Positions 5,550 through 20,613 of a DNA stretch of 64,000 bases are shown in pieces. Source of the DNA: Pectobacterium aroidearum (GTDB taxonomy: Bacteria; Pseudomonadota; Gammaproteobacteria; Enterobacterales; Enterobacteriaceae); NCBI RefSeq assembly GCF_015689195.1, contig NZ_CP065044.1, positions 3,038,001-3,102,000 on the forward strand, in the 5' to 3' direction. A program made the translations under genes and the position numbers. The notes beneath the pieces are model-generated. The model had not been told where the DNA came from. It worked only from the letters and a program-made list of their open reading frames with translations, and did no database searches. Every line of letters starts with the position of its first letter. Positions within the stretch are counted from its first letter, which is position 1.

Positions 5550-6338
5550 TCAGCCATAGGCATGGAGCGTGCGCTGGCACAGCGCCGAACGCACACAGTC
5601 CTCTTTACCGAAAGAGACCACGCCAATCATGTCATCCTCAACAAAGCGCTCCAGCGCGTCGCGCAGGCCGGATTTCACACCAGCCGGCAAGTCGCACTGC
5701 GTCACATCACCATTGACGATAACCGTGACATTCTCGCCTAAACGTGTCAGGAACATTTTCATTTGGTTCACCGTCACGTTTTGCGCCTCATCCAGAATCA
5801 CAACTGCATTTTCAAATGTCCGCCCGCGCATATACGCAAAAGGCGCAATTTCAACTTTGGCAATTTCCGGCCGCAAACAATATTGCATGAAAGAAGCCCC
5901 CAGCCGACGCAAAAGTATGTCGTAAACCGGACGGAAATAAGGCGCAAATTTCTCCGCAATATCTCCAGGTAAAAAGCCAAGATCCTCGTCGGCCTGTAAT
6001 ACCGGCCGCGTAACAATAATACGCTCAACCTCTTTATGGATTAGTGCCTCCGCCGCTTTCGCAGCGCTCAGATACGTTTTACCGCAGCCAGCTTCGCCTG
6101 TGGCAAAAATCAACTGTTTGTTTTCTATCGCAGACAAGTAATGTTCCTGGGCAGCTGTACGAGCTTGAATAACGGAATTATCGCGATTCTCACGCGCCAT
6201 GCCGATTGCTTCAATCCCGCCCATCTGTACCAGAGAAGTGACCGATTCTTCCTCACGCTGACGATGGCTACGCGACTCACGACGAATAACGCGTTTTGCT
6301 TCACGACGAGCTTTGATCACTGCTTTTTGTCTTCCCAT
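5550..6338 (-). CDS. phoH: PhoH-family ATPase
   Basis: A 262-aa P-loop protein nearly identical over its length to the core of E. coli PhoH: start MGRQKAVIKARREAKRV, Walker A GEAGCGKT (about residues 81-88), Walker B VVILDEAQN, and end CQRTLHAYG. PhoH is phosphate-starvation inducible in E. coli. The family is linked to RNA metabolism as an ATPase or helicase-like protein, but its exact function is unsettled. Some annotations give E. coli PhoH a longer N terminus; here no in-frame extension is convincing, and the ATG is followed at once by the conserved start. A possible Pho box lies about 400 bp upstream. It converges with tRNA-Ser on a shared terminator. Confidence 0.93.
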   Translation of the reverse strand: MGRQKAVIKARREAKRVIRRESRSHRQREEESVTSLVQMGGIEAIGMARENRDNSVIQARTAAQEHYLSAIENKQLIFATGEAGCGKTYLSAAKAAEALIHKEVERIIVTRPVLQADEDLGFLPGDIAEKFAPYFRPVYDILLRRLGASFMQYCLRPEIAKVEIAPFAYMRGRTFENAVVILDEAQNVTVNQMKMFLTRLGENVTVIVNGDVTQCDLPAGVKSGLRDALERFVEDDMIGVVSFGKEDCVRSALCQRTLHAYG

Positions 6339-6869
6339 AGTGGCACCTTACAGTTTGTTTCACTTACCGCACTGTTCTACAGCGCGTGACGTTTAACTCA
6401 CTAACGAGGTTAGGCTTCCTTATTAAGCCAATAGCGGACAGAAAATACACATGATTCATCCACGAACCGAGTGAAAAATGGATAACGCGTTCATGGATAG
6501 AAAACGAAAATAAACGGAGAGTTTGGGTAACAAGAGAATGGTGTAGCGTTGAAAATAAGTGGGAGGAACATCCCTCGCATCGGCGAGTCAGCAGCGTAGA
6601 ATCTTGACATCGACTACAAAGTCCAAAAAAGGACATTACCATTCGCGTTCCTCACTGTGACAACGACTATTCCACTGAATAATGATTGATCGCATCGTAG
6701 AACTACTGCTAACCATTGCCTAAAAATTAGTGCCGAATGATTTCAGTAGTATGACAGTGCAATAATTTGCCCCTACAATGCAAGCATTTTTTACACTGTC
6801 ATAACATTTACGTATAGTCAGTATCCCATGGTTTGGCAATGTCAGCCTGAGAACGACGCATTATGTACG
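6339..6869. other. 531-bp intergenic region between phoH and fliZ
   Basis: No convincing coding frame on either strand. It contains the upstream region of phoH, with a Pho-box-like sequence and a 10-bp inverted repeat (tatgacagtg 6750-6759, cactgtcata 6794-6803), and the 3' flank of fliZ. Both phoH and fliZ are on the minus strand. I saw no clear fliZ terminator. Confidence 0.6.
6740..6757 (-). promoter_or_regulatory. phoH: Possible Pho box for phoH
   Basis: Read on the minus strand it is CTGTCAT-ACTA-CTGAAAT, two 7-mers 4 bp apart like the PhoB consensus CTGTCAT-N4-CTGTCAT (7/7 and 5/7 matches). It lies about 400 bp upstream of the phoH start codon, which is far and would imply a long leader. 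Confidence 0.35.
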
Positions 6870-7385
6870 TCAGAAATGCCGCTGCCAGTCCAGATATTGA
6901 TCGTATTTTCGTAAGGCACTGCGGTAAATATTTTGCTCAATATCGGGAAGGTAATCACAAACGCGCTGCTGTACCCCATCGCGGTGACGGGAAAAGGTTT
7001 CCGCGGGGTAATTATTTGCAGCCAGCAACTCGTCCAGCCGCCGCAGGCGAATGACATACTCGCGCATCGTGCTATGGCGGACTTCAGTCTGTTCGATCAG
7101 ATACTGCGTGAAAGCTTTAATATCGAAATAGCTAGCAGTCGTATTGCATAATATTTCGCTACAAAAGCGGCAAAGTGGGATTAATTCCTGTTGCAGGCCG
7201 GACCATATTTCGTCATCAATAAGCCTGTCGATGCTGCCAATCGATTTTTTATTGATAAGCTGATTGCGAAATACCAGTGAAACGCGGTCGAGCTCTTTAT
7301 CACACTGGGAACAGTTGGTCTGTCTGTGTTTGAAGTCTTTCAGATAACGGCTTAGCAGCTGTTTCTTCCGAATTGATGGGTGCAT
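6870..7385 (-). CDS. fliZ: Flagellar regulator FliZ
   Basis: A 171-aa protein colinear with E. coli FliZ, with the N-terminal block LSRYLKDFKHRQT, two Cys pairs (CSQC, CRFC) and the DNA-contacting helix STMREYVIRLRRL. FliZ resembles the core-binding domain of tyrosine recombinases. In E. coli it represses sigma-S promoters, and in Salmonella it raises FlhDC activity through RflP. It lies 203 bp downstream of fliA on the same strand, the usual fliAZ pair. The intervening gap has no gene. Confidence 0.93.
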   Translation of the reverse strand: MHPSIRKKQLLSRYLKDFKHRQTNCSQCDKELDRVSLVFRNQLINKKSIGSIDRLIDDEIWSGLQQELIPLCRFCSEILCNTTASYFDIKAFTQYLIEQTEVRHSTMREYVIRLRRLDELLAANNYPAETFSRHRDGVQQRVCDYLPDIEQNIYRSALRKYDQYLDWQRHF

Positions 7386-7588
7386 GAATCCATTCCATGA
7401 CGATATATAACTTCAATATGAAGCAATAGCACCTTTCATTACGCCAGAAAACCTGGGGTGCTAACAACAGGCAGTATTGATCACGTAAATACTGATGCAA
7501 AAACACCCATCAATATTCAAATGCTGCCATGTTTTTGTGCTTCAGAGACTGAAGATATATTTGATAACAGTATTCCTACGCAGCGCAA

Positions 7589-8311
7589 TTAAACATCGTT
7601 CATTAATTTCACGCGCAGGCGCTTTATCGCCTGGCTATGCAACTGACTGACCCTCGACTCCCCGACTTCGAGAACGGCACCGATTTCTTTCAGGTTCAAC
7701 TCTTCCTGATAGTAAAGCGTCAATACCAATTTCTCACGCTCTGGCAGGCTTTCAATCGCGTCCATCACACGATGGCGCAAATTGCCTTCCATCAATTGAT
7801 GCAATGGATTCGCATCTTCATTGCCTTCCAGTAGAGCCTCTGCGCTATCACCATGTTCCTCACGCCATTCATCGTAAGAAAAAAGCTGGCTGTTGTTCGT
7901 ATCCAGCAATATCTGACGATAATCCTCAAGCGTGATATTCAGGGCCTGCGCAACCTCCTGCTCTGTTGGAGTACGACCGAGCTGTTGTTCAGCCTGCTGC
8001 ATTGCTTGTGCCACTTCCCGCGCATTACGCCGTACACTGCGTGGAGCCCAATCACGACTGCGTAATTCATCCAGCATCGAACCGCGGATTCGTTGAACGG
8101 CATAGGTAGTAAACGCCGTACCTTGCAACGAATCATAACGCTCGACTGCACTGAGCAAGCCGATACCACCAGCCTGTAGCAGATCGTCAAGCTCAACACT
8201 CGCGGGGAGACGAACCTGTAAACGCAAGGCTTCATGGCGCACTAGTGGAACATAGCGCTTCCAAAGGGAATTTTTATCCATTGTGCCTTCGGCGGTATAC
8301 AAATCGCTCAC
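7589..8311 (-). CDS. fliA: RNA polymerase sigma-28 factor FliA
   Basis: A 240-aa flagellar sigma factor for class 3 genes. The sequence tracks E. coli FliA (239 aa) from SLYTAEG at the N terminus to RLRVKLMN at the end. Region 2 is seen in ELDDLLQAGGIGLLSAVERYD, region 3 around the SRDWAPRSVRRN block, and region 4 in LPEREKLVLTLYYQEELNLKEIG. Anti-sigma factor FlgM (43.7 kb) holds it until the hook is finished. First gene of fliAZ. Confidence 0.98.
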   Translation of the reverse strand: MSDLYTAEGTMDKNSLWKRYVPLVRHEALRLQVRLPASVELDDLLQAGGIGLLSAVERYDSLQGTAFTTYAVQRIRGSMLDELRSRDWAPRSVRRNAREVAQAMQQAEQQLGRTPTEQEVAQALNITLEDYRQILLDTNNSQLFSYDEWREEHGDSAEALLEGNEDANPLHQLMEGNLRHRVMDAIESLPEREKLVLTLYYQEELNLKEIGAVLEVGESRVSQLHSQAIKRLRVKLMNDV

Positions 8312-8853
8312 AGTGACAAATACCTACGATGATAATGTTATCGACACTATTATGCTTTTAGGTAGGGTAGCCAATCGTCTGAATAGCGTCAAAAAAGAAG
8401 GGTTATTCCTGCCATGTATGACAGGATTAGGTAAAGACTCTGCGATGAGGGGCAAAAATGGTAAGCGCGTAGCGAGCTTATCGATTTCGTTGGGAGATTT
8501 CTCGCCCCAACACGGTTTCAAAATCAACGCCAAGTACATACTGCTCAGGGGGAGTTCCGATGACAATTTGTGTGCATAGAGCCCCCCGGAAACGCTACCT
8601 CTGAATAATCGCTCCTCTATTACTTCTGACCTTACGAAAATACTGGAGACTACAGATGCCTGCATATCTTCCGAGAAGCAAGCCCACTATTCTTAACATC
8701 CGTCTTGTATGGCAACTAACGCTTAACTACTGGTTTTTCATGTGGTTCACTCACCTGTTATAATCACATTCGAGATAATTAACGCTATCGTTCACATGTC
8801 TTGCCATGTGAGCAACCTCTGATTGGGCGTTCATTCACTTAGCTACGTGCTCA
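8312..8853. other. 542-bp intergenic region upstream of fliA
   Basis: No credible gene. It contains the fliA promoter zone, including a weak sigma-28-like element (8338-8364), and the 3' flank of the glycosyltransferase gene, where a 7-bp hairpin (TCACATG 8792-8798, CATGTGA 8805-8811) has no T-tract and is not a convincing terminator. This is the right boundary of fliAZ and the left boundary of the sugar-gene island. Confidence 0.6.
8338..8364 (-). promoter_or_regulatory. fliA: Weak sigma-28-like promoter of fliA
   Basis: On the minus strand a -10-like GTCGATAA (7/8 to GCCGATAA) lies 27 bp upstream of the start codon. At the right distance the -35 is only TACCTAAA, a poor match. fliA is autoregulated from such a promoter in Salmonella and E. 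coli; here the match is marginal. Confidence 0.35.
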
Positions 8854-10284
8854 TTATGGTTGGATAAAATCAGACCCCGAATATTTATCAGCAAGTTGTC
8901 TTTTATATGTAAAGTACTTTCCTTCACTACTCTTAACCGTTGTAACAACCCACATAAAAGAATGGTCATTGTGATCGGTATCACACACAATATCTGAGTC
9001 AACCCTGCACACAAGAGGGCTTATCTTAACAGCATCCAAAGATGCTGAAAGTGCGACTTGATCTAAAAACCAGACATTATTCCCATTTACCAAGTTAACA
9101 CTTATAAATGACGCAACTTTACTTATAAATTGCTTAGATACTTCTCCTCCATCAAGATAGACAAATCCGGCTAAAGCCTTTTCCCAAAAAGGCGCACTTT
9201 TAGTTTCAGTTAAAATTAAATCACATGGTTTTTCAGGTGAAATGACTGAAGATAAATCTTTCCTCATTAAACAGTCTGCATCAATAATTAATACAGGACC
9301 ATCCCATACAGATAAGGCATAGTGAGAGAATAAAAATCGCCTTGAAGCAAAATGTACATTTACTCCACTCACCATAGGAACACTTTCCGCTGTGCATGAT
9401 ATATTTAGCTCAGGAAATTTTTTTTTGTTCTTCTTTATATCAACTAAAACATCATCGGTTATATTGTAAATATGAAAATGAACATTGAAATTACTCTTGT
9501 TTGTTTCGTAAATTGAATATAGGGCATAAACCGCATGTTGGAAATAGTATTTTTCATCACAGGAAACAACAACATTTACTTTTTCATTTTTGCAGTCTTT
9601 ATCAATAAGCCAAAGATATTCTTCAATAGGAAAATAATCATCTTCATTTAATAAAGGACGAAAGTCTATATAAGAATCTGGATATCCACCGAGTTTGTAA
9701 ATTGCACAAGTCACCATTAACAACACGAGCCAATGCTCACCAACAAGCTTTTGATTAGAAGTCATTTCTTTTATTAAAGGCAAAGCCATATCGAAATTTT
9801 CTTCAATCATACAGATTATCAATAATATTCTAAACGCAGCCGGAGAGTCCGCAAGCACAGAAAAATTATTATTAATTAATTCAACCACTGGTTCTACATC
9901 ACCAACTCTAAACAATAACTGAATAGCGACCACAAGGTATTCTACAGATGGCCATAATTTTATTATCTCAACCAGTGAAGATCGTATATTATTAATATAC
10001 TCGTCTGGAAGTTTTACTTTCTTCCCTTCAAACTTTTCGTCAAGTGCCAGATTTGCCAAAGATATAGTGAGCAACAGTTGTTTTAATGCAATATCATGAT
10101 TATTTTCCAAGCCACTATCATATGTAAGAATAGTTTTATAAATTGATAACGTATCTAAACTACCTGCCACAATAGATGCTATAAATTCTTTGGGGAAATT
10201 GCCTATATTACCCAATTCAAGATCTCGAGAAAATATATCACGATAAAACTGATGCATTGACTTTGTATGGTTATATTCAAACAT
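8854..10284 (-). CDS. Putative GT-A glycosyltransferase with unrecognised N-terminal half
   Basis: 476 aa. Residues 236-476 look like a GT-A fold of the GT8-like type: a nucleotide-binding start VNVVVSCDEKYYFQHA (236-251), a metal-binding DxD at D335-A-D337 in VLIIDADCLMRKD, and a late FLDQVAL motif (406-412). Residues 1-235 are helical and I do not recognise them; they could be a repeat or partner-binding domain. There is no signal peptide or membrane segment, so it is probably cytosolic. The start has GGTGGGA upstream. It is last in an AT-rich operon after the aminotransferase and NeuD-like genes (41-bp gaps), next to the flagellin locus. A role in adding a sugar to flagellin or extending its glycan is inferred from place. 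Confidence 0.72.
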   Translation of the reverse strand: MFEYNHTKSMHQFYRDIFSRDLELGNIGNFPKEFIASIVAGSLDTLSIYKTILTYDSGLENNHDIALKQLLLTISLANLALDEKFEGKKVKLPDEYINNIRSSLVEIIKLWPSVEYLVVAIQLLFRVGDVEPVVELINNNFSVLADSPAAFRILLIICMIEENFDMALPLIKEMTSNQKLVGEHWLVLLMVTCAIYKLGGYPDSYIDFRPLLNEDDYFPIEEYLWLIDKDCKNEKVNVVVSCDEKYYFQHAVYALYSIYETNKSNFNVHFHIYNITDDVLVDIKKNKKKFPELNISCTAESVPMVSGVNVHFASRRFLFSHYALSVWDGPVLIIDADCLMRKDLSSVISPEKPCDLILTETKSAPFWEKALAGFVYLDGGEVSKQFISKVASFISVNLVNGNNVWFLDQVALSASLDAVKISPLVCRVDSDIVCDTDHNDHSFMWVVTTVKSSEGKYFTYKRQLADKYSGSDFIQP

Positions 10285-10325
10285 TACATTCCCACCTAGA
10301 TATACATTTATCCAATCAGTATGAA

Positions 10326-10973
10326 CTACATAAATACTCTTCTTTTATTGTTTTCTCTTACTATCTTCGCTGGATTTCCTGCTACAACCATTCGATCAGG
10401 TACTGATGATAGTACGTTAGATCCCATTCCAACTATAACATCATCACCTATATGAATCTTCTCTTTAATTAACGCCCCCATTCCTATAAATGTTCTAGAA
10501 CCAATAGAAACAGCACCGGCCATCGCAGAATACGTCGACGTTACTGAGTGGGGACCAATATAACAGTCATGACTGAGACTAGAAAACGCTTGCATAACAA
10601 CATTATTTTCTATACGAGTATCGCAAGATATATTAACCCCCTGAAAAATAACGATTCCCTCACCTAATTGACTATAAGGTGAAATATAGACTGATGGAGC
10701 GATTAGTGTCGCCAGATTAATACCATTCTCTCTGATTTTTTCAGACAACATAGCTCTTAGTGATGGTTCACCAATAGCAATAACTATTTCAAGTGATTTA
10801 AGACTCTTTATCTGCTCAAAACATTTAACAGATAGATTATGTAAACAACGATTATAATCCATATCATCAATAAAAATAATATCATCCCATTTTTTAGATG
10901 TACAATTAATAAGATGAGCTAATGTTAATATTTCTCGGCCTAACCCACCAGTACCATAAATTCCTAATATCAT
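10326..10973 (-). CDS. NeuD/PglD-family sugar N- or O-acyltransferase
   Basis: A 215-aa protein with an N-terminal Rossmann-like part (MILGIYGTGGLGREIL, FIDD) that binds the sugar nucleotide, and a C-terminal left-handed beta-helix of hexapeptide repeats (about residues 90-205: VYISPYSQLGEGIVIFQG, GSRTFIGMGALIK, VVAGNPAKIVR). The family acyl-transfers from acetyl-CoA to amino sugars. His in SLSHDCYIG is in the position of the family's catalytic base. The ATG at 10973 has AGGTGAT upstream and is preferred over an in-frame GTG at 10982. Set between an aminotransferase and a glycosyltransferase, it probably acylates the 4-amino sugar made by its neighbour. Confidence 0.88.
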   Translation of the reverse strand: MILGIYGTGGLGREILTLAHLINCTSKKWDDIIFIDDMDYNRCLHNLSVKCFEQIKSLKSLEIVIAIGEPSLRAMLSEKIRENGINLATLIAPSVYISPYSQLGEGIVIFQGVNISCDTRIENNVVMQAFSSLSHDCYIGPHSVTSTYSAMAGAVSIGSRTFIGMGALIKEKIHIGDDVIVGMGSNVLSSVPDRMVVAGNPAKIVRENNKRRVFM

Positions 10974-11014
10974 CTGTATCACCTATGATAGACAAGAAAG
11001 ATTTCGTTAATACA

Positions 11015-12124
11015 TTATAAAAAAGAAAGAATCTCATTAATAACTTCATCCTGTTCTTCATCTGTCAAATCAGCGTATATTGGCAAACACAAGACCATCT
11101 CAGATATATTATTTGCAATAGAAAGATTATTTCCCATCGCACTATCTAATCCACGATACATAGGAAATGAACTTATTAAAGGATAAAAGTAACGGCGGGT
11201 ATAAATATTCTTTTTCTTCAAGTTTTCATATAAAATCTCACGATCCACAGGGAAGTTAGAGTCGACAAAAATAGGACAATAGGCATAATTCCATGTAACA
11301 TTATGAGGAACGCTAATGAGTCGAATCCCTGAAATACCACCTAACCGCTCACAATAAGTCTGATATAGTTTTTTACGACAGTGTAAAGCACCATCAATGT
11401 AATTTAACTGCAACAAACCAAAAGCAGCTTGTACTTCATTCATTTTTCCATTGATACCCGGTGCAACTACGGTAAGTTCATCAGCAAAACCAAAATTTTT
11501 TAAATAATCTATTCGTTTTTTTGCCTTTTCATCTGGACAAATAATTGCCCCCCCCTCAATAGTATTGAAGACTTTAGTCGCATGAAAGCTAAGAATGGAC
11601 AAGTCTCCATGATTCAAAATACTCATATCATCTTTCTTGACACCAAAAGCATGTGCTGCATCATAAATAATACGTAAGCCGTAATTGTCAGCAATGCTCT
11701 GGATTTTATCTACATTCGCTGGAATCCCATAGCAATGCACTGGCAATATAGCAGAAGTAGCCGGTGTAATTGCTTCTTCAATTTTATTCTCATCAAGATT
11801 ACAGGTTACAGGATCAATATCGACAAACACAGGCTTCAAACCATTCCATAAGAGAGTATGGGAAGTGGCCACAAAAGAATAAGGTGTAGTAATAACCTCA
11901 CCGGTAATACGCAGAGCCTGTAACGCAGTTAATAATGCCAGCGTACCATTTGAAAAAAGGCTGATATAATTTACGCCAAGATAATCAGCTAATTCTTGTT
12001 CTAATTTTTGATGGAAAGGACCACCATTAGTCAGCCATTTGTTCTGCCAAATCTCTTCAAGATACGGTGTGAACTCTTCTAACGGTGGAAGTAATGGACT
12101 TGTTACATATATTGGTTTTTTCAT
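11015..12124 (-). CDS. DegT/DnrJ/EryC1 sugar-nucleotide aminotransferase (VioA/FdtB-like)
   Basis: A 369-aa PLP enzyme of the nucleotide-sugar aminotransferase family. It has the N-terminal signature WLTNGGPFHQKLE and the FSNGTLAL phosphate-binding loop. DAAHAFG carries the PLP-contacting Asp, and the Schiff-base Lys is in SFHATKVFNTIEGG (about residue 180). Members convert keto-deoxy sugar nucleotides to amino sugars such as dTDP-viosamine; the exact sugar cannot be read from sequence. The ATG at 12124 follows GGTGGAG at good spacing; an upstream in-frame GTG (12137) overlaps that ribosome-binding site and is unlikely. It is 41 bp ahead of the NeuD-like gene. Notably AT-rich against the flagellar genes. 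Confidence 0.9.
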   Translation of the reverse strand: MKKPIYVTSPLLPPLEEFTPYLEEIWQNKWLTNGGPFHQKLEQELADYLGVNYISLFSNGTLALLTALQALRITGEVITTPYSFVATSHTLLWNGLKPVFVDIDPVTCNLDENKIEEAITPATSAILPVHCYGIPANVDKIQSIADNYGLRIIYDAAHAFGVKKDDMSILNHGDLSILSFHATKVFNTIEGGAIICPDEKAKKRIDYLKNFGFADELTVVAPGINGKMNEVQAAFGLLQLNYIDGALHCRKKLYQTYCERLGGISGIRLISVPHNVTWNYAYCPIFVDSNFPVDREILYENLKKKNIYTRRYFYPLISSFPMYRGLDSAMGNNLSIANNISEMVLCLPIYADLTDEEQDEVINEILSFL

Positions 12125-12235
12125 ATCACTCTGCTCCACCTATAACCACGTCATATTAACATAAAAGGAATATTTTATTTTTCTAATAACTGCTACGTGT
12201 ACATCCGACATTGGTCTTAGTCAAAAAACAGAAAT

Positions 12236-15200
12236 TCAATACCCAATCGAATAACTTTTATTTTTTTCGCTGGCACACCAAGCTTTCCAAATTACTCTGA
12301 GCGTTTTTTCAAAATAAGTTGCAGGCGTAACACCATCAGCATCAATATCACGACCAATTTTATTACGTAAATCATGACGAATCTGATTAAGCTCATCCAG
12401 TCTATCACTCCAGCCAATTGCTTTATTTATATAATCAGTTTGAGAAGAAACAATAAACTCATTCAAACCCACCTGAGATAAGTTCGAAACACCTTGCCTC
12501 GTAGCTAATTTTTCACCCGCCAAAGTTAAAGTCGGCACCCCCATCCAAAGTGCATGATTCGTCGTTGTGCCCCCTGTATAAGGAAATGTGTCTAACAACA
12601 AATCAATCTCATGGTGCATAGCCAAATAGTTTATTATATTGGTTCTCTCGCGGAAAATGAGCTGTTCAGGTTGAACCCCCTGCGATTCCAGAGTATTACG
12701 TATTTTTTCCCTCGCCTCATGATTAGGTAATGCACCGATAATCATTTTGCTCGTGGGCAAGGCTAGCAAAATTTTAGCCCATGCGGATAAGACGTCGTTA
12801 TTGATTTTAGTCGGTCGGTTAAAACTTGCGAAAGTGAAATACTTGTTTTTTAATGCGGGAAGATCATTCACGGGTGGACAACCAGATACAGGATCAAACT
12901 GACGACTAAATGGAACGTAGAGTAGTTTTTCGGTAAATTGACAATCCAAAACCTCAGGAAGTGGCTTATGGTTCATAATCAAATAATAATCCATCGATTT
13001 TAATCCAGTCGTCCCTGGATAGCCAATCCAACTTATCTGAATCGGTGCTGGCTTCATAGCAAAAACAGGTAAACGGTTATAGGCAGTATGTCCAGAAAGA
13101 TCGAATAGTATGTCAATCTCATCGCGCCGAATGATTTCAAACAACTCAACATCACTTGTACCAGCTACATTACGCCATACAGTCGCACCTGTTTCCAATA
13201 AACGAGAGGTATTATCGTAATGATTTGATGTCGAATAGGCATAAAGAGAGAAATATTCACGATTAATAGCATTCCATACCGGAGCCAAAAAACTGCTGAC
13301 TGGATGTGACCATAAGTCGCCAGAAACAAAACCAATGCGCAATACACGTTCGGGATTTTTATCCTGCTGATGGTATATGCTCACAGAAATATCCGAGTCA
13401 ATACGACTTTCAACCAACTCACCATAGCGACGATGTTCTGCAAATAATTCAGCCGCACTAATATTTGCATTATGCAACAATGCAAACAGCAGATTACTAT
13501 ACAAATTTAAATCATCAGGCGCAGAGGCAATAGCACGGCGATAATATTCAATAGCACCTTCAACATTCGACTGCTTATCCAACACCATCGCCATCGAATT
13601 TAATATTGCAGAATCATTAGGCAGAAGTTGCATTGCTTTATTGAGACAACTTTCCGCCCCCGTCATATTTTCAGTTCTTAGATAAACAAGAGCAGCTACG
13701 TTCCATGCAATTGCATTATTGCCATCACAGCGGATTACCTTATAAGCTAAATTAATCGCGTGCCAATAGTGATAGGTGCTATGCAATAAACTGGACAGTT
13801 CGCTGTATACCAACCATGCATTGCTGTACATAGAAATGACTTTCGCCAGAGAAAAGATCGCCGCATTTTTATCACCAGTGACAAAATTTATTCTTTCTAA
13901 TGCAATCCAACTCTGAAGATTGTGCGGCTGTGCCACGGTAAGCTCTTCTGCCAGACGTCTAGCCTCTGTATATTTTTGTTCTTTTAGTAGCTCATATAAG
14001 CGGCTTTTGATTTTCACATCAATAGGGCTGTTGATAAATCTTTTTCTGCTTTTTTCAACTTTTTTAACATCGCTGGGCTTAAACATTCCCCCGCCAGTTA
14101 TATCGCTGGAATACATAATCATTGGATTAATGTTGTGGATCACATCAGCAACAGATGTTGCTAGCGCCAGACGTTTTTGGAAATACCGTTGCCAAGCAAC
14201 AGCACTCCCAATGAGTAATCCCTTGCTATGTAACTCATCGAGTAGCGCTAACGAATCAGGCCCTGATTCCAACGCTTCCAACTGAGCGAGAAGTGATTGA
14301 CTACCCTGTACAGATGGCGGTAAAGAGACAGACTCATGCCAATAGTTGAATGAGCCCCATCCTCCCTCAATGCCAGGTAAAAATCTTAATACACTAAAAT
14401 CACTTTTCCGATAAACACATTCACCAACACAGTAATGAAGACTCGGTAAACCTTGTTTTAACAGAGCATATAGAGAGTCGCGGACATTTTTTTCATGTTG
14501 GTCATCTTTCTTTTCTGGAAAATGCGTATTAAAGATAAGCTGCTTGAAGGTAACGCTAGCCGGCCAGGCTTCACCCAGAACATCGAGAATCCTCTGAGTC
14601 AGCTCATGATCCGTGGAAATCTGTATACCGTCATTCGCAATGTGTGCATTAGAGGCAAACCCTTCCGCCAGCATGACACGCCGGAAGCTGCCCGCCCAGG
14701 AAAGTTTGTCCAATCGCGAGACATCAATTTCCGATTCCAACTTTTCCGCCCGTTCAGCAGCGACCAGCAGACTAAACCGACGTTTGCGTCCAACGTTAAA
14801 ATCCAGATACTGCTGTTTCAATATCTTATTGCCAGTCGGACAGATTGTGCGCAGTAAGTTATCTACCTGGTCACCATAGTGAGAGGCAATCTCAGTATGA
14901 GGCTCAATTTCGCCAACATAAGCCAAGCCTTCTTGCGTAATCAGTGCATTAAAGTCGAGCAGATAGCAGGGTTGATTCAGGCCTTGTAGATAGTTGAGCG
15001 CTAGCGACACATCGCCCAGTTGTTCGGCTTCTTCAACCAGAGTCGCAATAGCGGCTCTTTGAGGGTTATTTGCCGACATGCCCAGCGATAAATAGCTCAA
15101 CATGGCTCTTGCACTGGCTTGCTGTTGTTCCGGTGTTTCTGCCAGACTCGCGTGCAGGTTTAAAGCATCCTGCAGAATTTCCTCTGTCTTCCCGCCAGGA

Positions 15201-15661
15201 TAGGTCGAATAGGAAAAACACACCACGCCTTTTGCACTTAAATGACGGTGGCAATATGCTAACAACGCCGAGCGAGCTTCGCCGCTAACCAGTCCGAAAA
15301 CACCATGAACAATGATATAATCAAATTTGCCAAGATTGCTGTCCAAAAGCGATGCTAAATCCATTGCCTGGAGTTGCAGATTGGTTAATCCATATTGCTG
15401 AACCCACATCTGCCCTTGCGCAATTTTTTCCTCATCAAGATCGATACCAATAGCCTGCGCCTGCGGATAAGCAGTAGCAAATGGCAACAGGTTCGCGCCA
15501 CTCATGCATCCCAGTTCCAGTACCCGAGCTCTATCAGGGTCCGCTGCCACAATGCCATGCAAGTATGCTACTGCCTGCAAATGCGTCGGTGAGGTATAAG
15601 GCAAAGGACAGCGCTCAGCAGCGCTCGTTGTTGGATGGCTGGCGGCAGTATCTAGAGTCAT
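12236..15661 (-). CDS. Methyltransferase-TPR-OGT (GT41) fusion, candidate flagellin glycosyltransferase
   Basis: 1141 aa from the ATG at 15661; the open frame runs on to a TTG at 15730 that is unlikely to be used. Residues about 46-155 are an SAM methyltransferase (motif I VLELGCMSGANLLPFA, acidic GIDLDEE at 72-78). Residues about 165-505 resemble a methyltransferase regulatory domain. Residues about 550-745 hold TPR repeats (for example AIAWNVAALVYLRTENMTGAESCLNKAM). Residues 774-1126 are an OGT/GT41 catalytic region: RIGFVSGDLWSHPVSS with the catalytic-type His786, PAPIQISWIGYPGTTG, FNRPTKINNDVL with the UDP-binding-type Lys952, and DTFPYTGGTTTNHALWMGVP. GT41 enzymes put GlcNAc on Ser/Thr. 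Lying just downstream of fliC on the same strand, flagellin is the likely acceptor (inference). Confidence 0.85.
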   Translation of the reverse strand: MTLDTAASHPTTSAAERCPLPYTSPTHLQAVAYLHGIVAADPDRARVLELGCMSGANLLPFATAYPQAQAIGIDLDEEKIAQGQMWVQQYGLTNLQLQAMDLASLLDSNLGKFDYIIVHGVFGLVSGEARSALLAYCHRHLSAKGVVCFSYSTYPGGKTEEILQDALNLHASLAETPEQQQASARAMLSYLSLGMSANNPQRAAIATLVEEAEQLGDVSLALNYLQGLNQPCYLLDFNALITQEGLAYVGEIEPHTEIASHYGDQVDNLLRTICPTGNKILKQQYLDFNVGRKRRFSLLVAAERAEKLESEIDVSRLDKLSWAGSFRRVMLAEGFASNAHIANDGIQISTDHELTQRILDVLGEAWPASVTFKQLIFNTHFPEKKDDQHEKNVRDSLYALLKQGLPSLHYCVGECVYRKSDFSVLRFLPGIEGGWGSFNYWHESVSLPPSVQGSQSLLAQLEALESGPDSLALLDELHSKGLLIGSAVAWQRYFQKRLALATSVADVIHNINPMIMYSSDITGGGMFKPSDVKKVEKSRKRFINSPIDVKIKSRLYELLKEQKYTEARRLAEELTVAQPHNLQSWIALERINFVTGDKNAAIFSLAKVISMYSNAWLVYSELSSLLHSTYHYWHAINLAYKVIRCDGNNAIAWNVAALVYLRTENMTGAESCLNKAMQLLPNDSAILNSMAMVLDKQSNVEGAIEYYRRAIASAPDDLNLYSNLLFALLHNANISAAELFAEHRRYGELVESRIDSDISVSIYHQQDKNPERVLRIGFVSGDLWSHPVSSFLAPVWNAINREYFSLYAYSTSNHYDNTSRLLETGATVWRNVAGTSDVELFEIIRRDEIDILFDLSGHTAYNRLPVFAMKPAPIQISWIGYPGTTGLKSMDYYLIMNHKPLPEVLDCQFTEKLLYVPFSRQFDPVSGCPPVNDLPALKNKYFTFASFNRPTKINNDVLSAWAKILLALPTSKMIIGALPNHEAREKIRNTLESQGVQPEQLIFRERTNIINYLAMHHEIDLLLDTFPYTGGTTTNHALWMGVPTLTLAGEKLATRQGVSNLSQVGLNEFIVSSQTDYINKAIGWSDRLDELNQIRHDLRNKIGRDIDADGVTPATYFEKTLRVIWKAWCASEKNKSYSIGY

Positions 15662-15823: not shown

Positions 15824-15850
15824 AAAAAAACCAGCCCCGAAGGGCTGGTT
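15824..15850 (-). terminator. fliC: Rho-independent terminator of fliC
   Basis: On the minus strand AACCAGCCC-TTCG-GGGCTGGTT followed by seven T residues: a very stable UUCG-tetraloop hairpin 34 bp after the fliC stop codon. Confidence 0.95.
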
Positions 15851-15884: not shown

Positions 15885-16751
15885 TTAACGCAGCAGAGAC
15901 AGAACAGTCTGTGGAACCTGGTTTGCCTGAGACAGTACAGATGTACCAGCCTGCTGCAGAATCTGGCTACGGCTCATGTTTGATACTTCGGTCGCGTAGT
16001 CAGCGTCTTCGATACGGCTACGAGCAGAAGACAGGTTGTTAATAGAGTTGTTCAGGTTAGTAATGGTAGATGAGAAACGGTTCTGAATCGCACCCAGGTT
16101 ACTACGAGCAGTGTCGACAGCAGACAATGCAGTATCAACTGCTGTGATCAATGCCTGAGCAGCAGAGTTCGCAGAACTACCGGCAGCAACAGACCCCAGA
16201 GAGGAAATGTTAGCTGAAACATCACTCATTGAACCGCCAGTCGTTGCGTTGATCAACGCAGTGCTGTCAATTGTAATGGTTTCAGTTGCACCAGTGTTAG
16301 CACCAACCTGAATAATGATACCACCACTTGCAGAACCGTCCAGCAGTTTAGTACCGTTGAAAGAAGCACTCTGCGCAACACGGTTAACTTCGTTAATACG
16401 CTGGGTCATTTCCTTAACGATAGAATCACGGTCAGTCTTGCCGTTAGGATCGTTCGCTGCTTGAGTTGCCAGCTCACGGATACGCTGCAAGTTGTTGTTG
16501 ATTTCGTTCAGGTTGCCTTCGGCAGTTTGAGTCAGAGAGATACCATCGTTGGCGTTACGAGCGGCCTGGGTCATACCCTTAATCTGAGCGCTCATACGGT
16601 TAGCGATCGCTTGGCCAGCTGCGTCATCTTTCGCGCTGTTGATACGCAGACCAGAAGACAGACGCTCGATAGCGGTACCCAGAGCAGACTGAGATTTGTT
16701 CAGGTTGTTCTGAGTAGTCAGAGACATGATGTTAGTATTAATAACTGCCAT
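15885..16751 (-). CDS. fliC: Flagellin FliC (short form)
   Basis: The filament subunit, exported unfolded through the flagellar type III pore. 288 aa, much shorter than E. coli K-12 flagellin (498 aa). The conserved D0/D1 N terminus (MAVINTNIMSLTTQNNLNKS, LSSGLRINSAKDDAAGQAIANR) is joined through a short Ser/Thr/Ala-rich middle (about 145-205) to the conserved C-terminal D1/D0 (SRIEDADYATEVSNMSR to VLSLLR). The outer D2/D3 domains are largely absent. Surface Ser/Thr residues in the middle are candidate glycosylation sites given the neighbouring OGT gene. Codon use is that of a highly expressed gene. Transcribed from a strong sigma-28 promoter and ended by a UUCG terminator. Confidence 0.98.
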   Translation of the reverse strand: MAVINTNIMSLTTQNNLNKSQSALGTAIERLSSGLRINSAKDDAAGQAIANRMSAQIKGMTQAARNANDGISLTQTAEGNLNEINNNLQRIRELATQAANDPNGKTDRDSIVKEMTQRINEVNRVAQSASFNGTKLLDGSASGGIIIQVGANTGATETITIDSTALINATTGGSMSDVSANISSLGSVAAGSSANSAAQALITAVDTALSAVDTARSNLGAIQNRFSSTITNLNNSINNLSSARSRIEDADYATEVSNMSRSQILQQAGTSVLSQANQVPQTVLSLLR

Positions 16752-19297: not shown

Positions 19298-19324
19298 CGC
19301 CTCTATTATTGGGGCGTTTTTTTT
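19298..19324 (+). terminator. Rho-independent terminator of fliDST
   Basis: Stem CGCCTC/GGGGCG (one G-T pair) with loop TATTATT, followed by eight T residues. Confidence 0.85.
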
Positions 19325-19347
19325 GACTGTTTTTCGTCAACATGGTT

Positions 19348-19351
19348 AGAC
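19348..19351. repeat. Target-site duplication, left copy
   Basis: AGAC directly before the TGTAAG end of the insertion sequence; the same four bases follow its other end. Confidence 0.85.
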
Positions 19352-19367
19352 TGTAAGCACACCCGTT

Positions 19368-20162
19368 TTAGTTCCACGCACTTTTTGAGATTTCCGGGTT
19401 TTCAGCCATCAGACGGTACTCTTCCGGCGTCAGGTTATTCAGGGATTCATGGGGCCGCTCACCGTTATATTCAGCCAGCCAGCGCTCTGTAATTTCCCGT
19501 GCTTCATTCAGTGTTCTGAACAGATAAAAATCCAGTATTTCGGTCCGGTACGTCCGGTTAAAGCGTTCGATAAATGCGTTTTGCGTCGGTTTACCCGGCT
19601 TGATAAAGTCCAGCATCACGCCATGCTCTTCGGCCCATTGAGCCAGCGCCAGCGATATAAGTTCTGGCCCATTATCCATCCTCATCTTCAGCGGATATCC
19701 ACGGTTTGCCACGATCCTATCCAGTACCCGGACAACACGCTGGGCCGGGATATTCAGGTCAATTTCAATGGCCAGGGCTTCCCGGTTAAAATCATCCACC
19801 ACATTGAAGGTTCTGAAGCGTCTGCCGCAGACCAGCGCGTCGTGCATAAAATCGATGGACCAGCTCTGGTTCAGCGCCTCTGGGGTCGCCAGTGGAGCCG
19901 GATTACGCACCGGCAGACGTTGCTTTCCTTTGCGACGAAAATTCAGTTTCAGAAGACAGTAAATTCGGTGAACACGCTTGTGATTCCAGGTATTCCCCTG
20001 CCTGCGCAATACCTGAAAAAGCTTCTTAAATCCGTATCGTGGATAGCGTTCAGCCATCACTAGCAGCCCCTGGATCACCGATTCATCACGCCGGGTATCT
20101 GGCTGGTATAAAAACACCGTCCTGCTCAACGATAACGTCCTGCATGCCTGACGTATGCTCAT
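19368..20162 (-). CDS. IS3-family transposase, OrfB (DDE catalytic part)
   Basis: 264 aa as a separate frame; in life it is probably read as an OrfAB fusion. It has an HTH_21-like N-terminal part (YPRYGFKKLFQVLRRQG) and an integrase core with the DDE triad: Asp in SWSIDFMHDAL, Asp in MRMDNGPEL and Glu in NAFIERFNRTYR. The reading frame continues upstream of this ATG, in the -1 frame, into the end of orfA through EKKALKPAIKRELVSYL. A run of seven A followed by G at 20226-20219 (heptamer A-AAA-AAG) is a classic IS3 slippery site. Confidence 0.94.
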   Translation of the reverse strand: MSIRQACRTLSLSRTVFLYQPDTRRDESVIQGLLVMAERYPRYGFKKLFQVLRRQGNTWNHKRVHRIYCLLKLNFRRKGKQRLPVRNPAPLATPEALNQSWSIDFMHDALVCGRRFRTFNVVDDFNREALAIEIDLNIPAQRVVRVLDRIVANRGYPLKMRMDNGPELISLALAQWAEEHGVMLDFIKPGKPTQNAFIERFNRTYRTEILDFYLFRTLNEAREITERWLAEYNGERPHESLNNLTPEEYRLMAENPEISKSAWN

Positions 20163-20212
20163 CGCAAACTGCGAGGTCAGATAACTGACGAGCTCACGTT
20201 TTATCGCTGGTT

Positions 20213-20479
20213 TTAAAGCTTTTTTTCAATAACATCTTTTAGCGCCCGGCATTCCAGACTGAGGTCGGCAAACATCTGTTTGAGCCGCCGGTTCTCGTCT
20301 TCCAGATCTTTGATCTTTTTAATATCAGCCGCTTCCATCCCGCCGTATTTTGCTTTCCAGTTGTAATAGCTGGCTTCGGATATAGCGGCTTCGCGGCAGA
20401 CATCTTTGACGGTTCGTCCGGCTTCGACGGACTTCAGAACGGCGATGATCTGGTGTTCAGTGAATCGGATCTTGCGCAT
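20213..20479 (-). CDS. IS3-family transposase, OrfA (DNA-binding part)
   Basis: 88 aa from the ATG at 20479, which follows GAGGAG at ideal spacing; a longer frame begins at 20500. It has the HTH_Tnp_1 sequence RKIRFTEHQIIAVLKSVE and an IS407-type leucine-zipper helix (KKIKDLEDENRRLKQMFADLSL). It ends EKKL-stop just after the slippery A7G stretch, where -1 frameshifting would make the OrfAB transposase. Confidence 0.94.
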   Translation of the reverse strand: MRKIRFTEHQIIAVLKSVEAGRTVKDVCREAAISEASYYNWKAKYGGMEAADIKKIKDLEDENRRLKQMFADLSLECRALKDVIEKKL

Positions 20480-20558
20480 AGCGATCTCCTCAGGGGACAT
20501 AGTTAGTATGTCGGAAGATCTCTAAAAGTGAATGGTCCGCTTTACAGGGATACTTACA

Positions 20559-20562
20559 AGAC
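20559..20562. repeat. Target-site duplication, right copy
   Basis: AGAC directly after the CTTACA end of the insertion sequence. Together with the left copy it marks a simple, recent-looking transposition event. Confidence 0.85.
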
Positions 20563-20613
20563 TATCGGCAGAAGGAAATCTGGAAATCTGTAGGCGCTAA
20601 AAAGATTGAAGAC
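20563..20613 (+). pseudogene. Possible C-terminal gene remnant next to the IS
   Basis: In one frame the DNA after the IS reads RQKEIWKSVGAKKIED-stop (TAA 20611-20613), which looks protein-like. No start or 5' part exists: across the IS the sequence joins 24 bp to the fliDST terminator. It may be an old remnant or chance. I cannot name a family. Confidence 0.2.

Follow-up and report, generated by a model that had tools for sequence, protein, structure and literature searches.

A methyltransferase-GT41 fusion gene beside fliC of Pectobacterium aroidearum encodes a candidate flagellin-modifying enzyme with two catalytic halves

Introduction

What is the role of a single polypeptide that joins a methyltransferase to a glycosyltransferase beside a flagellin gene, and on which molecule does each half act? 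The question is raised by a 64,000-nucleotide stretch of Pectobacterium aroidearum DNA (RefSeq assembly GCF_015689195.1, contig NZ_CP065044.1, positions 3,038,001 to 3,102,000), hereafter the window, in which a gene downstream of fliC encodes an 1141-residue protein composed of an S-adenosylmethionine (AdoMet)-dependent methyltransferase, a tetratricopeptide repeat (TPR) array and a GT41 glycosyltransferase. We propose, in what we regard as an evenly balanced judgement, that both halves of this fusion are catalytic and modify flagellin, combining GT41-type O-glycosylation with probable methylation of flagellin lysines.

Flagellin glycosylation islands located between fliC and fliA have been reported in 307 of 2,000 Enterobacteriaceae genomes, and passages of the same work describe an AdoMet methyltransferase domain in all island GT41 enzymes (194 strains) except eight GT41-11 (De Maayer and Cowan 2016, PMC4875605). 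These islands share with the window the fliC-fliA slot, the combination of GT41 and methyltransferase, and the aminotransferase and NeuD-type neighbors. Fusions of this kind have, therefore, been described before, and the premise of an earlier, sequence-only reading of this locus, that GT41 enzymes usually consist of TPR and O-GlcNAc transferase (OGT) parts only, does not hold for enterobacterial flagellin islands, in which fusion to a methyltransferase is common. In the relevant passages of PMC4875605, the methyltransferase domain is filed under glycan modification and the stand-alone enzyme SmtA is not tied to the GT41 enzymes, while the terms "protein lysine," "PKMT," "Rickettsia" and "MethyTransf_Reg" are absent from its main text. 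The kinship of the methyltransferase half with protein lysine methyltransferases (PKMTs), presented below, is without a match in the literature searched, and no link between PKMT-type enzymes and GT41 fusions was found among the matches listed in the open-access literature.

Results

Architecture of the fusion protein

The open reading frame (ORF) of the fusion begins with an ATG at position 15661 and its stop codon ends at 12236 on the minus strand, while a start at the upstream TTG (15730) would lengthen the chain by 23 residues (1164-residue form). Pfam searches with the longer form returned Glyco_transf_41 (E = 5.2e-46), Methyltransf_25 (E = 2.2e-13), MethyTransf_Reg PF10119 (E = 2.9e-18) and several TPR families. 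The composition given by the sequence-only reading, namely, a methyltransferase, a regulatory domain (corresponding to PF10119), TPRs and a GT41 part in 1141 residues, was thus recovered, and the domain search which that reading had proposed as a check yielded both GT41 and methyltransferase signals. His786 and Lys952, named in the same reading, are present as described and are invariant in 17/17 aligned fusion sequences (an alignment that excludes the fused loci L079 and L095); we take them to be equivalent to H498 and K842 of human OGT, which are catalytic/UDP-site residues. The AlphaFold model of the chain has a mean predicted local distance difference test (pLDDT) score of 83.1 and a predicted template modeling (pTM) score of 0.76, and the VIA-align ranges on this model cover mainly residues 545 to 1139. 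The fusion is the sole GT41 protein and the sole PF10119 protein found in the source genome.

The placement of the gene "directly after fliC" proved correct as regards its downstream position, on the same strand; the two genes are, however, separated by a gap of 223 bp which contains a terminator-like hairpin of nine pairs and a T run. If this hairpin is functional, the fusion gene would be transcribed apart from fliC. The number of such sites is itself no evidence, as three were observed in 8.8 kb against 6.1 in shuffled sequence.

Kinship of the methyltransferase half

The N-terminal half was placed in the protein lysine methyltransferase family that includes the Rickettsia PKMTs and Acinetobacter KmtA. 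Among the PDB relatives of the module only PKMT1 and PKMT2 stand out, and the structural alignment with 5do0 extends to residue 553 of that structure, suggesting a nearly full-length PKMT-type module. The fold, the PF10119 region and the AdoMet contacts are shared with PKMT1, PKMT2 and KmtA, where the likeness to KmtA rests on its description rather than its own sequence, and the PF10119 region of the PKMTs is given without a profile scan of these enzymes. Asp74 and His119 of the window protein are the counterparts of Asp102 and His146 of RpPKMT1; the glycine motif is also retained, and both residues are present in 7/7 stand-alone relatives. PKMT1 and PKMT2 (acting on OmpB) and KmtA (acting on AtaA) are, in contrast, separate enzymes whose substrates are outer-membrane or adhesin proteins, whereas the window module shares its chain with a glycosyltransferase and is encoded next to flagellin; OmpB and AtaA are regarded as the main substrates of outer-membrane PKMT-type enzymes (PMC11784438).

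In a methyltransferase tree of 44 rows, the 17 fused modules form one group (support, 93/94) whose neighbor is the stand-alone pair from Pectobacterium genomes G001 and G015 (89/90, below the starred level), and the relative from G048, a genome of another family, lies elsewhere. The fused glycosyltransferase halves likewise form one group in their own tree (23 rows, 88/73). That each half is a single lineage is consistent, as far as sequence comparison can indicate, with one fusion event that involved a lysine methyltransferase already directed at flagellin. The methyltransferase core is under purifying selection, which fits a catalytic or a docking role alike.

Association with flagellin

In the wider locus search, 145 of the 196 stretches of an alignment scan were confirmed and the best 80 retained; among named genomes, the fusion was present in 17 of these 80 loci, from Pectobacterium, Serratia, Symbiopectobacterium, Dickeya, Enterobacter, Cedecea, Huaxiibacter, Silvania and Burkholderiales (a metagenome-assembled genome, Pollutimonas and Cupriavidus); in one fused locus, L095, the reading frame is broken. 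Flagellin genes accompany the fusion in 16/17 of these loci, as do aminotransferase genes. A single-sequence scan of genome contigs found nothing. Across the 25 genomes of the genus (the window's included), nine carry a fused enzyme (the window, G059, G007, G018, G010, G009, G020, G013 and G016), two a stand-alone methyltransferase (G001 and G015), one a GT41 chain without a methyltransferase (G012) and one the flagellin lysine-N-methylase FliB (G006). None of these was found in the remaining 12, among which the slot was not recovered whole or is rearranged in G005, G014 and G021, and the large island proteins of G003 and G004 are GT2 enzymes. Of 295 genomes sampled across the order, 12 (window included) gave a match to the methyltransferase module at E <= 1e-20, and in only two of these, the window and G221, does the match lie in an open frame of >1,000 residues.

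That flagellin is the likely acceptor, as the sequence-only reading had proposed, gains support both from this linkage and from Dickeya dadantii 3937. According to passages of PMC6637903, disruption of Dda3937_03424, annotated as an O-linked N-acetylglucosamine transferase and located between fliA and fliC, reduces the flagellin mass from 32,170 Da in the wild type to 28,890 Da in mutant A4277 (approximately 3.3 kDa), a second mutant, A3422, having a value of 31,034 Da. This gene is likened to the fusion by slot and annotation, and a methyltransferase half is not mentioned in those passages.

Several observations point to a protein, rather than a sugar, as the substrate of the methyltransferase half. 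The 566- and 564-residue relatives of G001 and G015, which contain PF10119 and PF21782 (the PKMT C-terminal domain), stand alone between fliC and fliA, in a slot without a glycosyltransferase or sugar gene, and are presumed to be the "SmtA" (FMI2) reported for six Pectobacterium wasabiae strains in passages of PMC4875605. The further relative in G048 adjoins four flagellin genes. In G006 the fliC-fliA slot is occupied by FliB, which acts on flagellin but belongs to an unrelated family and uses a 4Fe-4S cluster (title of PMC8598068); FliB was found in none of the 11 genus genomes that encode the enzyme in fused or stand-alone form, and its model NF038110 matched G006 but neither the window protein nor anything in the source genome. 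The island of G007, the sole one scanned of four such islands, encodes a separate methyltransferase besides the fusion. Finally, of four long ORFs beside other PF10119 genes, two proved to be autotransporters and two to belong to two-partner-secretion systems, these four having been picked by size from 14 neighboring ORFs of >=900 residues; the proteins in question (at L193, L198, L200 and L202) may be substrates of the adjoining enzymes. On account of these sugar-free relatives, the FliB-occupied slot, the G048 context, the tree grouping, the surface-protein neighbors and the additional methyltransferase of G007, a protein is the likelier acceptor, which narrows the earlier claim of "methylation of the sugar or protein" toward the latter, the module being, by sequence, of the protein lysine methyltransferase type.

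A mosaic gene

Comparison with the conspecific genome G059 revealed that the first 947 nucleotides of the fusion gene differ at eight sites (99% identity), whereas the next 93 differ at 31 (Fisher p = 6e-28, with the boundary set after inspection). Identity of 99% resumes from 8449 to 7373, a span which includes fliA. Synonymous divergence is 0.062 for residues 1 to 330, which include approximately 15 past the break, and is near or beyond saturation downstream; extrapolation from the alignment and published domain borders puts the break itself approximately 10 residues beyond the AdoMet region. The GC content of the divergent segment (Table 1) compares with 49.3% for the methyltransferase end, 48.9% for fliC and 48.1% for the rest of the window. 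This step alone is no proof of exchange, since the glycosyltransferase part is lower in GC than the methyltransferase core in 21/21 fusion rows (by 1 to 11 points); it is the comparison with G059 that shows the exchange. A sharp drop in identity also separates the islands of G009 and G020 from that of G013 after approximately codon 900, within the glycosyltransferase half. From these breaks it follows that the fliC-adjacent part of the gene can stay in place while the sugar-facing part is exchanged.

The GT41 half, its neighbors and the predicted glycan

By sequence and structure comparison, the glycosyltransferase half is about equally near to Arabidopsis SPINDLY and to OGT enzymes; it has the GT41 fold in common with SPINDLY, Thermobaculum OGT, XcOGT and human OGT, none of which, to our knowledge, contains a methyltransferase. 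As the titles of the solved structures name GDP-fucose for SPINDLY and UDP-GlcNAc for human OGT, O-GlcNAc is not to be assumed as the product. The sugar in the earlier label of "O-GlcNAc transferase" is thus not established, the neighboring genes seeming to be of an amido-dideoxyhexose type.

The coordinates of the fusion, its parts and its neighbors are collected in Table 1. The aminotransferase matched the NCBIfam model PLP_DesI (E = 4.6e-88, under the curated cut-off of that model) and structure 2po3 (titled "4-dehydrase"; E = 1.1e-61), which we take to be DesI. The acyltransferase matched the perosamine N-acetyltransferase 4ea7 (E = 3.9e-27) and VioB 7txp (E = 9.1e-21). For the 476-residue neighbor, Pfam searches gave nothing above cut-off and a PDB sequence search nothing useful; its model (pLDDT 74.6) had a best Foldseek E value of 7.5e-05, and all 25 matches with E <= 0.001 are glycosyltransferases, with weak TM-scores of 0.22 to 0.33 by query length among the best 50 matches listed. 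A tblastn search of the same protein against plasmid records returned six partial matches of 26 to 29% identity. The name fliA for the far border of the island is presumed from sequence and position. Apart from the fusion, no protein encoded in the window island matched a methyltransferase family in Pfam and NCBIfam scans, and rmlB is located elsewhere in the source genome. Judged by sequence, the neighbors look like a pathway to a dTDP-4-amido-4,6-dideoxyhexose, and a sugar of the viosamine type is expected by analogy with Pseudomonas syringae, whose flagellin carries 2-O-methyl viosamine made with a separate 241-residue methyltransferase, VioM (passages of PMC3927599).

Table 1. Features of the fliC-fliA region of the window
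Feature	Coordinates	Strand	Basis or remark
Fused methyltransferase-TPR-GT41 gene, 1141 aa	12236..15661	minus	ORF, Pfam, AlphaFold model
Protein-lysine-methyltransferase-type module, residues 19-484	14210..15607	minus	Putative AdoMet-binding Asp74 and His119
PF10119 MethyTransf_Reg, residues 218-300	14762..15010	minus	E = 8e-19
TPR array with GT41 catalytic domain, residues 545-1139	12245..14029	minus	His786 and Lys952
fliC, encoding the likely acceptor (288-aa flagellin)	15885..16751	minus	
Terminator-like hairpin, 9 pairs and T run, between fliC and fusion gene	15829..15850	minus	
Segment differing from G059 (C-terminal 826 residues of the fusion and sugar genes)	8450..14715	minus	GC 37.8%
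DegT-type sugar aminotransferase, closest to DesI-type dTDP-4-keto-6-deoxyglucose 4-aminotransferase (VioA-like)	11015..12139	minus	
NeuD/PglB/VioB-type sugar N-acyltransferase	10326..10982	minus	TIGR03570, 170.2 bits (cut-off 160.8)
Probable second glycosyltransferase, 476 aa	8854..10284	minus	Predicted GT-A fold (GT8/GT6-like) after helical N-terminal half
fliA, far island border	7589..8311	minus	Full-length match in 25/25 genus genomes (window's included)

Discussion

In the mechanism which we propose, the TPR-GT41 half would bind cytoplasmic FliC and attach the first sugar to serine or threonine residues, the glycan would contain a 4-amido-4,6-dideoxyhexose (viosamine type) derived from dTDP-4-keto-6-deoxyglucose, and the neighboring GT-A-type enzyme would add a second sugar. 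The PKMT/KmtA-type half would most likely methylate flagellin lysines, thereby doing the job that FliB performs in other strains. A precedent for the glycosyltransferase half is FlmG of Caulobacter crescentus, which similarly combines TPRs with a glycosyltransferase and is a cytoplasmic flagellin O-glycosyltransferase, although one that uses pseudaminic acid and for which the passages concerned mention no methyltransferase half (PMC7591256).

A number of results weigh against this proposal. Across the 17 aligned fusions, Asp74 is retained in 15 and replaced by Glu in the other two, and His119 is retained in 13 and lost in four, so that some fusions may be methylation-dead. PF21782 was undetected in the window sequence by a Pfam-type search and, as only PKMT1 and PKMT2 stand out in the PDB, the best match there leaves room for other acceptors. 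One fused locus, L088 (Cupriavidus), has neither a flagellin homologue nor an aminotransferase gene within the fetched DNA. PF10119 matched 44 of 369 genomes (window's included), and no flagellin homologue was detected at 40 fetched places in other Gammaproteobacteria, drawn from 55 besides the window's, in a search made solely by BLAST with the window fliC and in which 12 of the 40 stretches were <13 kb, mostly at contig ends. The six neighbors scanned at the stand-alone genes of L046, L072, L073 and L074 include no surface protein, being a transporter or enzymes of housekeeping type, and the neighbor scanned at L044 is a FleQ-type regulator; given these neighbors and the absence of flagellin from the 40 places, linkage to flagellin or surface proteins is not general. 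The published Dickeya masses, in the passages concerned, do not distinguish a contribution of methyl groups from one of sugars. Lastly, the window FliC contains only six lysines (19, 41, 58, 105, 113 and 135), with none among the 60 variable residues 141 to 200, and no lysine column marks the fusion-adjacent flagellins among the 19 flagellins compared, to all of which Lys 19, 41 and 58 are common (the set lacking a methyltransferase comprised eight, one of them adjoining FliB). In the flagellins that adjoin the two stand-alone enzymes, the variable regions (194 and 203 residues) contain 10 lysines each; lysine counts were, nonetheless, of no help as support for lysine methylation, given the lysine-free variable region in the window.

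The methyltransferase half might instead O-methylate a sugar, either as a nucleotide sugar or in the attached glycan, in the manner of VioM, a reading which we consider doubtful. The viosamine-type gene pair downstream of the fusion, the lack of another methyltransferase match in the window island, the lysine-poor FliC and the methylated viosamine of P. syringae would all suit it, but the module resembles a nearly full-length PKMT-type enzyme, its closest stand-alone relatives adjoin fliC without any sugar gene, and G007 possesses a separate methyltransferase in addition to the fusion. A sugar-specific enzyme had been the first reading of this half, a view that lost ground with the PKMT match and with the stand-alone relatives that lack sugar genes. 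It is also unlikely, in our estimation, that this half is now mainly a docking or regulatory module for flagellin, with the GT41 half alone being catalytic in many members. Such a role would fit the loss of His119 and the change of Asp74 in certain fusions, the binding of flagellin by FlmG through its N-terminal TPR domain (passages of PMC7591256), and the finding that the methyltransferase core and fliC match the conspecific genome where the glycosyltransferase half does not; in the window protein, however, neither AdoMet contact is lost and the glycine motif is intact, and the TPR array could itself dock flagellin. Very improbable is an acceptor other than flagellin, such as a different protein of the cytoplasm or the cell surface. 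Other targets are modified elsewhere by GT41 enzymes and also by PKMTs (for the latter, PMC11784438), and L088 lacks a nearby flagellin gene, against which stand the flagellin gene in 16/17 fused loci and the altered FliC mass upon disruption of the same-slot, OGT-annotated gene of Dickeya (passages of PMC6637903).

Returning to the two-halved flagellin-modifying enzyme, its fullest form, which we put forward tentatively and as somewhat short of an even chance, is that one enzyme places two marks on flagellin (PKMT-type lysine methylation and GT41 O-glycosylation), that it arose by a single fusion, and that its gene acts as a recombination hinge at which the methyltransferase core stays with fliC and the glycosyltransferase half is exchanged with the sugar genes. 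Such a mosaic gene would provide a strain with a way to change its flagellar sugar and keep the flagellin-facing part. We know of no earlier case in which a single chain both methylates and glycosylates one surface protein. Should both halves act on flagellin, this protein would be added to OmpB and AtaA as PKMT substrates (PMC11784438), and the methyltransferase domains of the 194 enterobacterial strains described in passages of PMC4875605 might be reread as protein, not glycan, methyltransferases.

Additional observations

Duplicated fusion genes were encountered in Serratia marcescens (L078, 6418-13483), where a tandem pair of fused methyltransferase-GT41 genes follows fliC and the first copy has His119 replaced by Gln and Asp74 by Glu, and in Symbiopectobacterium (L079 and L119), with two copies each, one of them broken. 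In L067 (G021) the fliC-fliA region is apparently inverted and fragmented, with fliD and the aminotransferase gene in two pieces each. L222 (G635, 6031-10113) encodes a 1360-residue protein with a C-terminal PKMT-type methyltransferase and approximately 880 N-terminal residues without a Pfam match (E 1e-5). Betaproteobacterial loci L106, L115 and L093 contain ORFs of 2176 to 2369 residues with GT41 similarity directly after flagellin genes. Within the window, positions 19324 to 20584 hold a transposase ORF (19368-20162, minus strand) between the fliDST cluster and the next fli genes, and the match to G059 jumps from 19323 to 20585, with approximately 40 bases in between in that genome.

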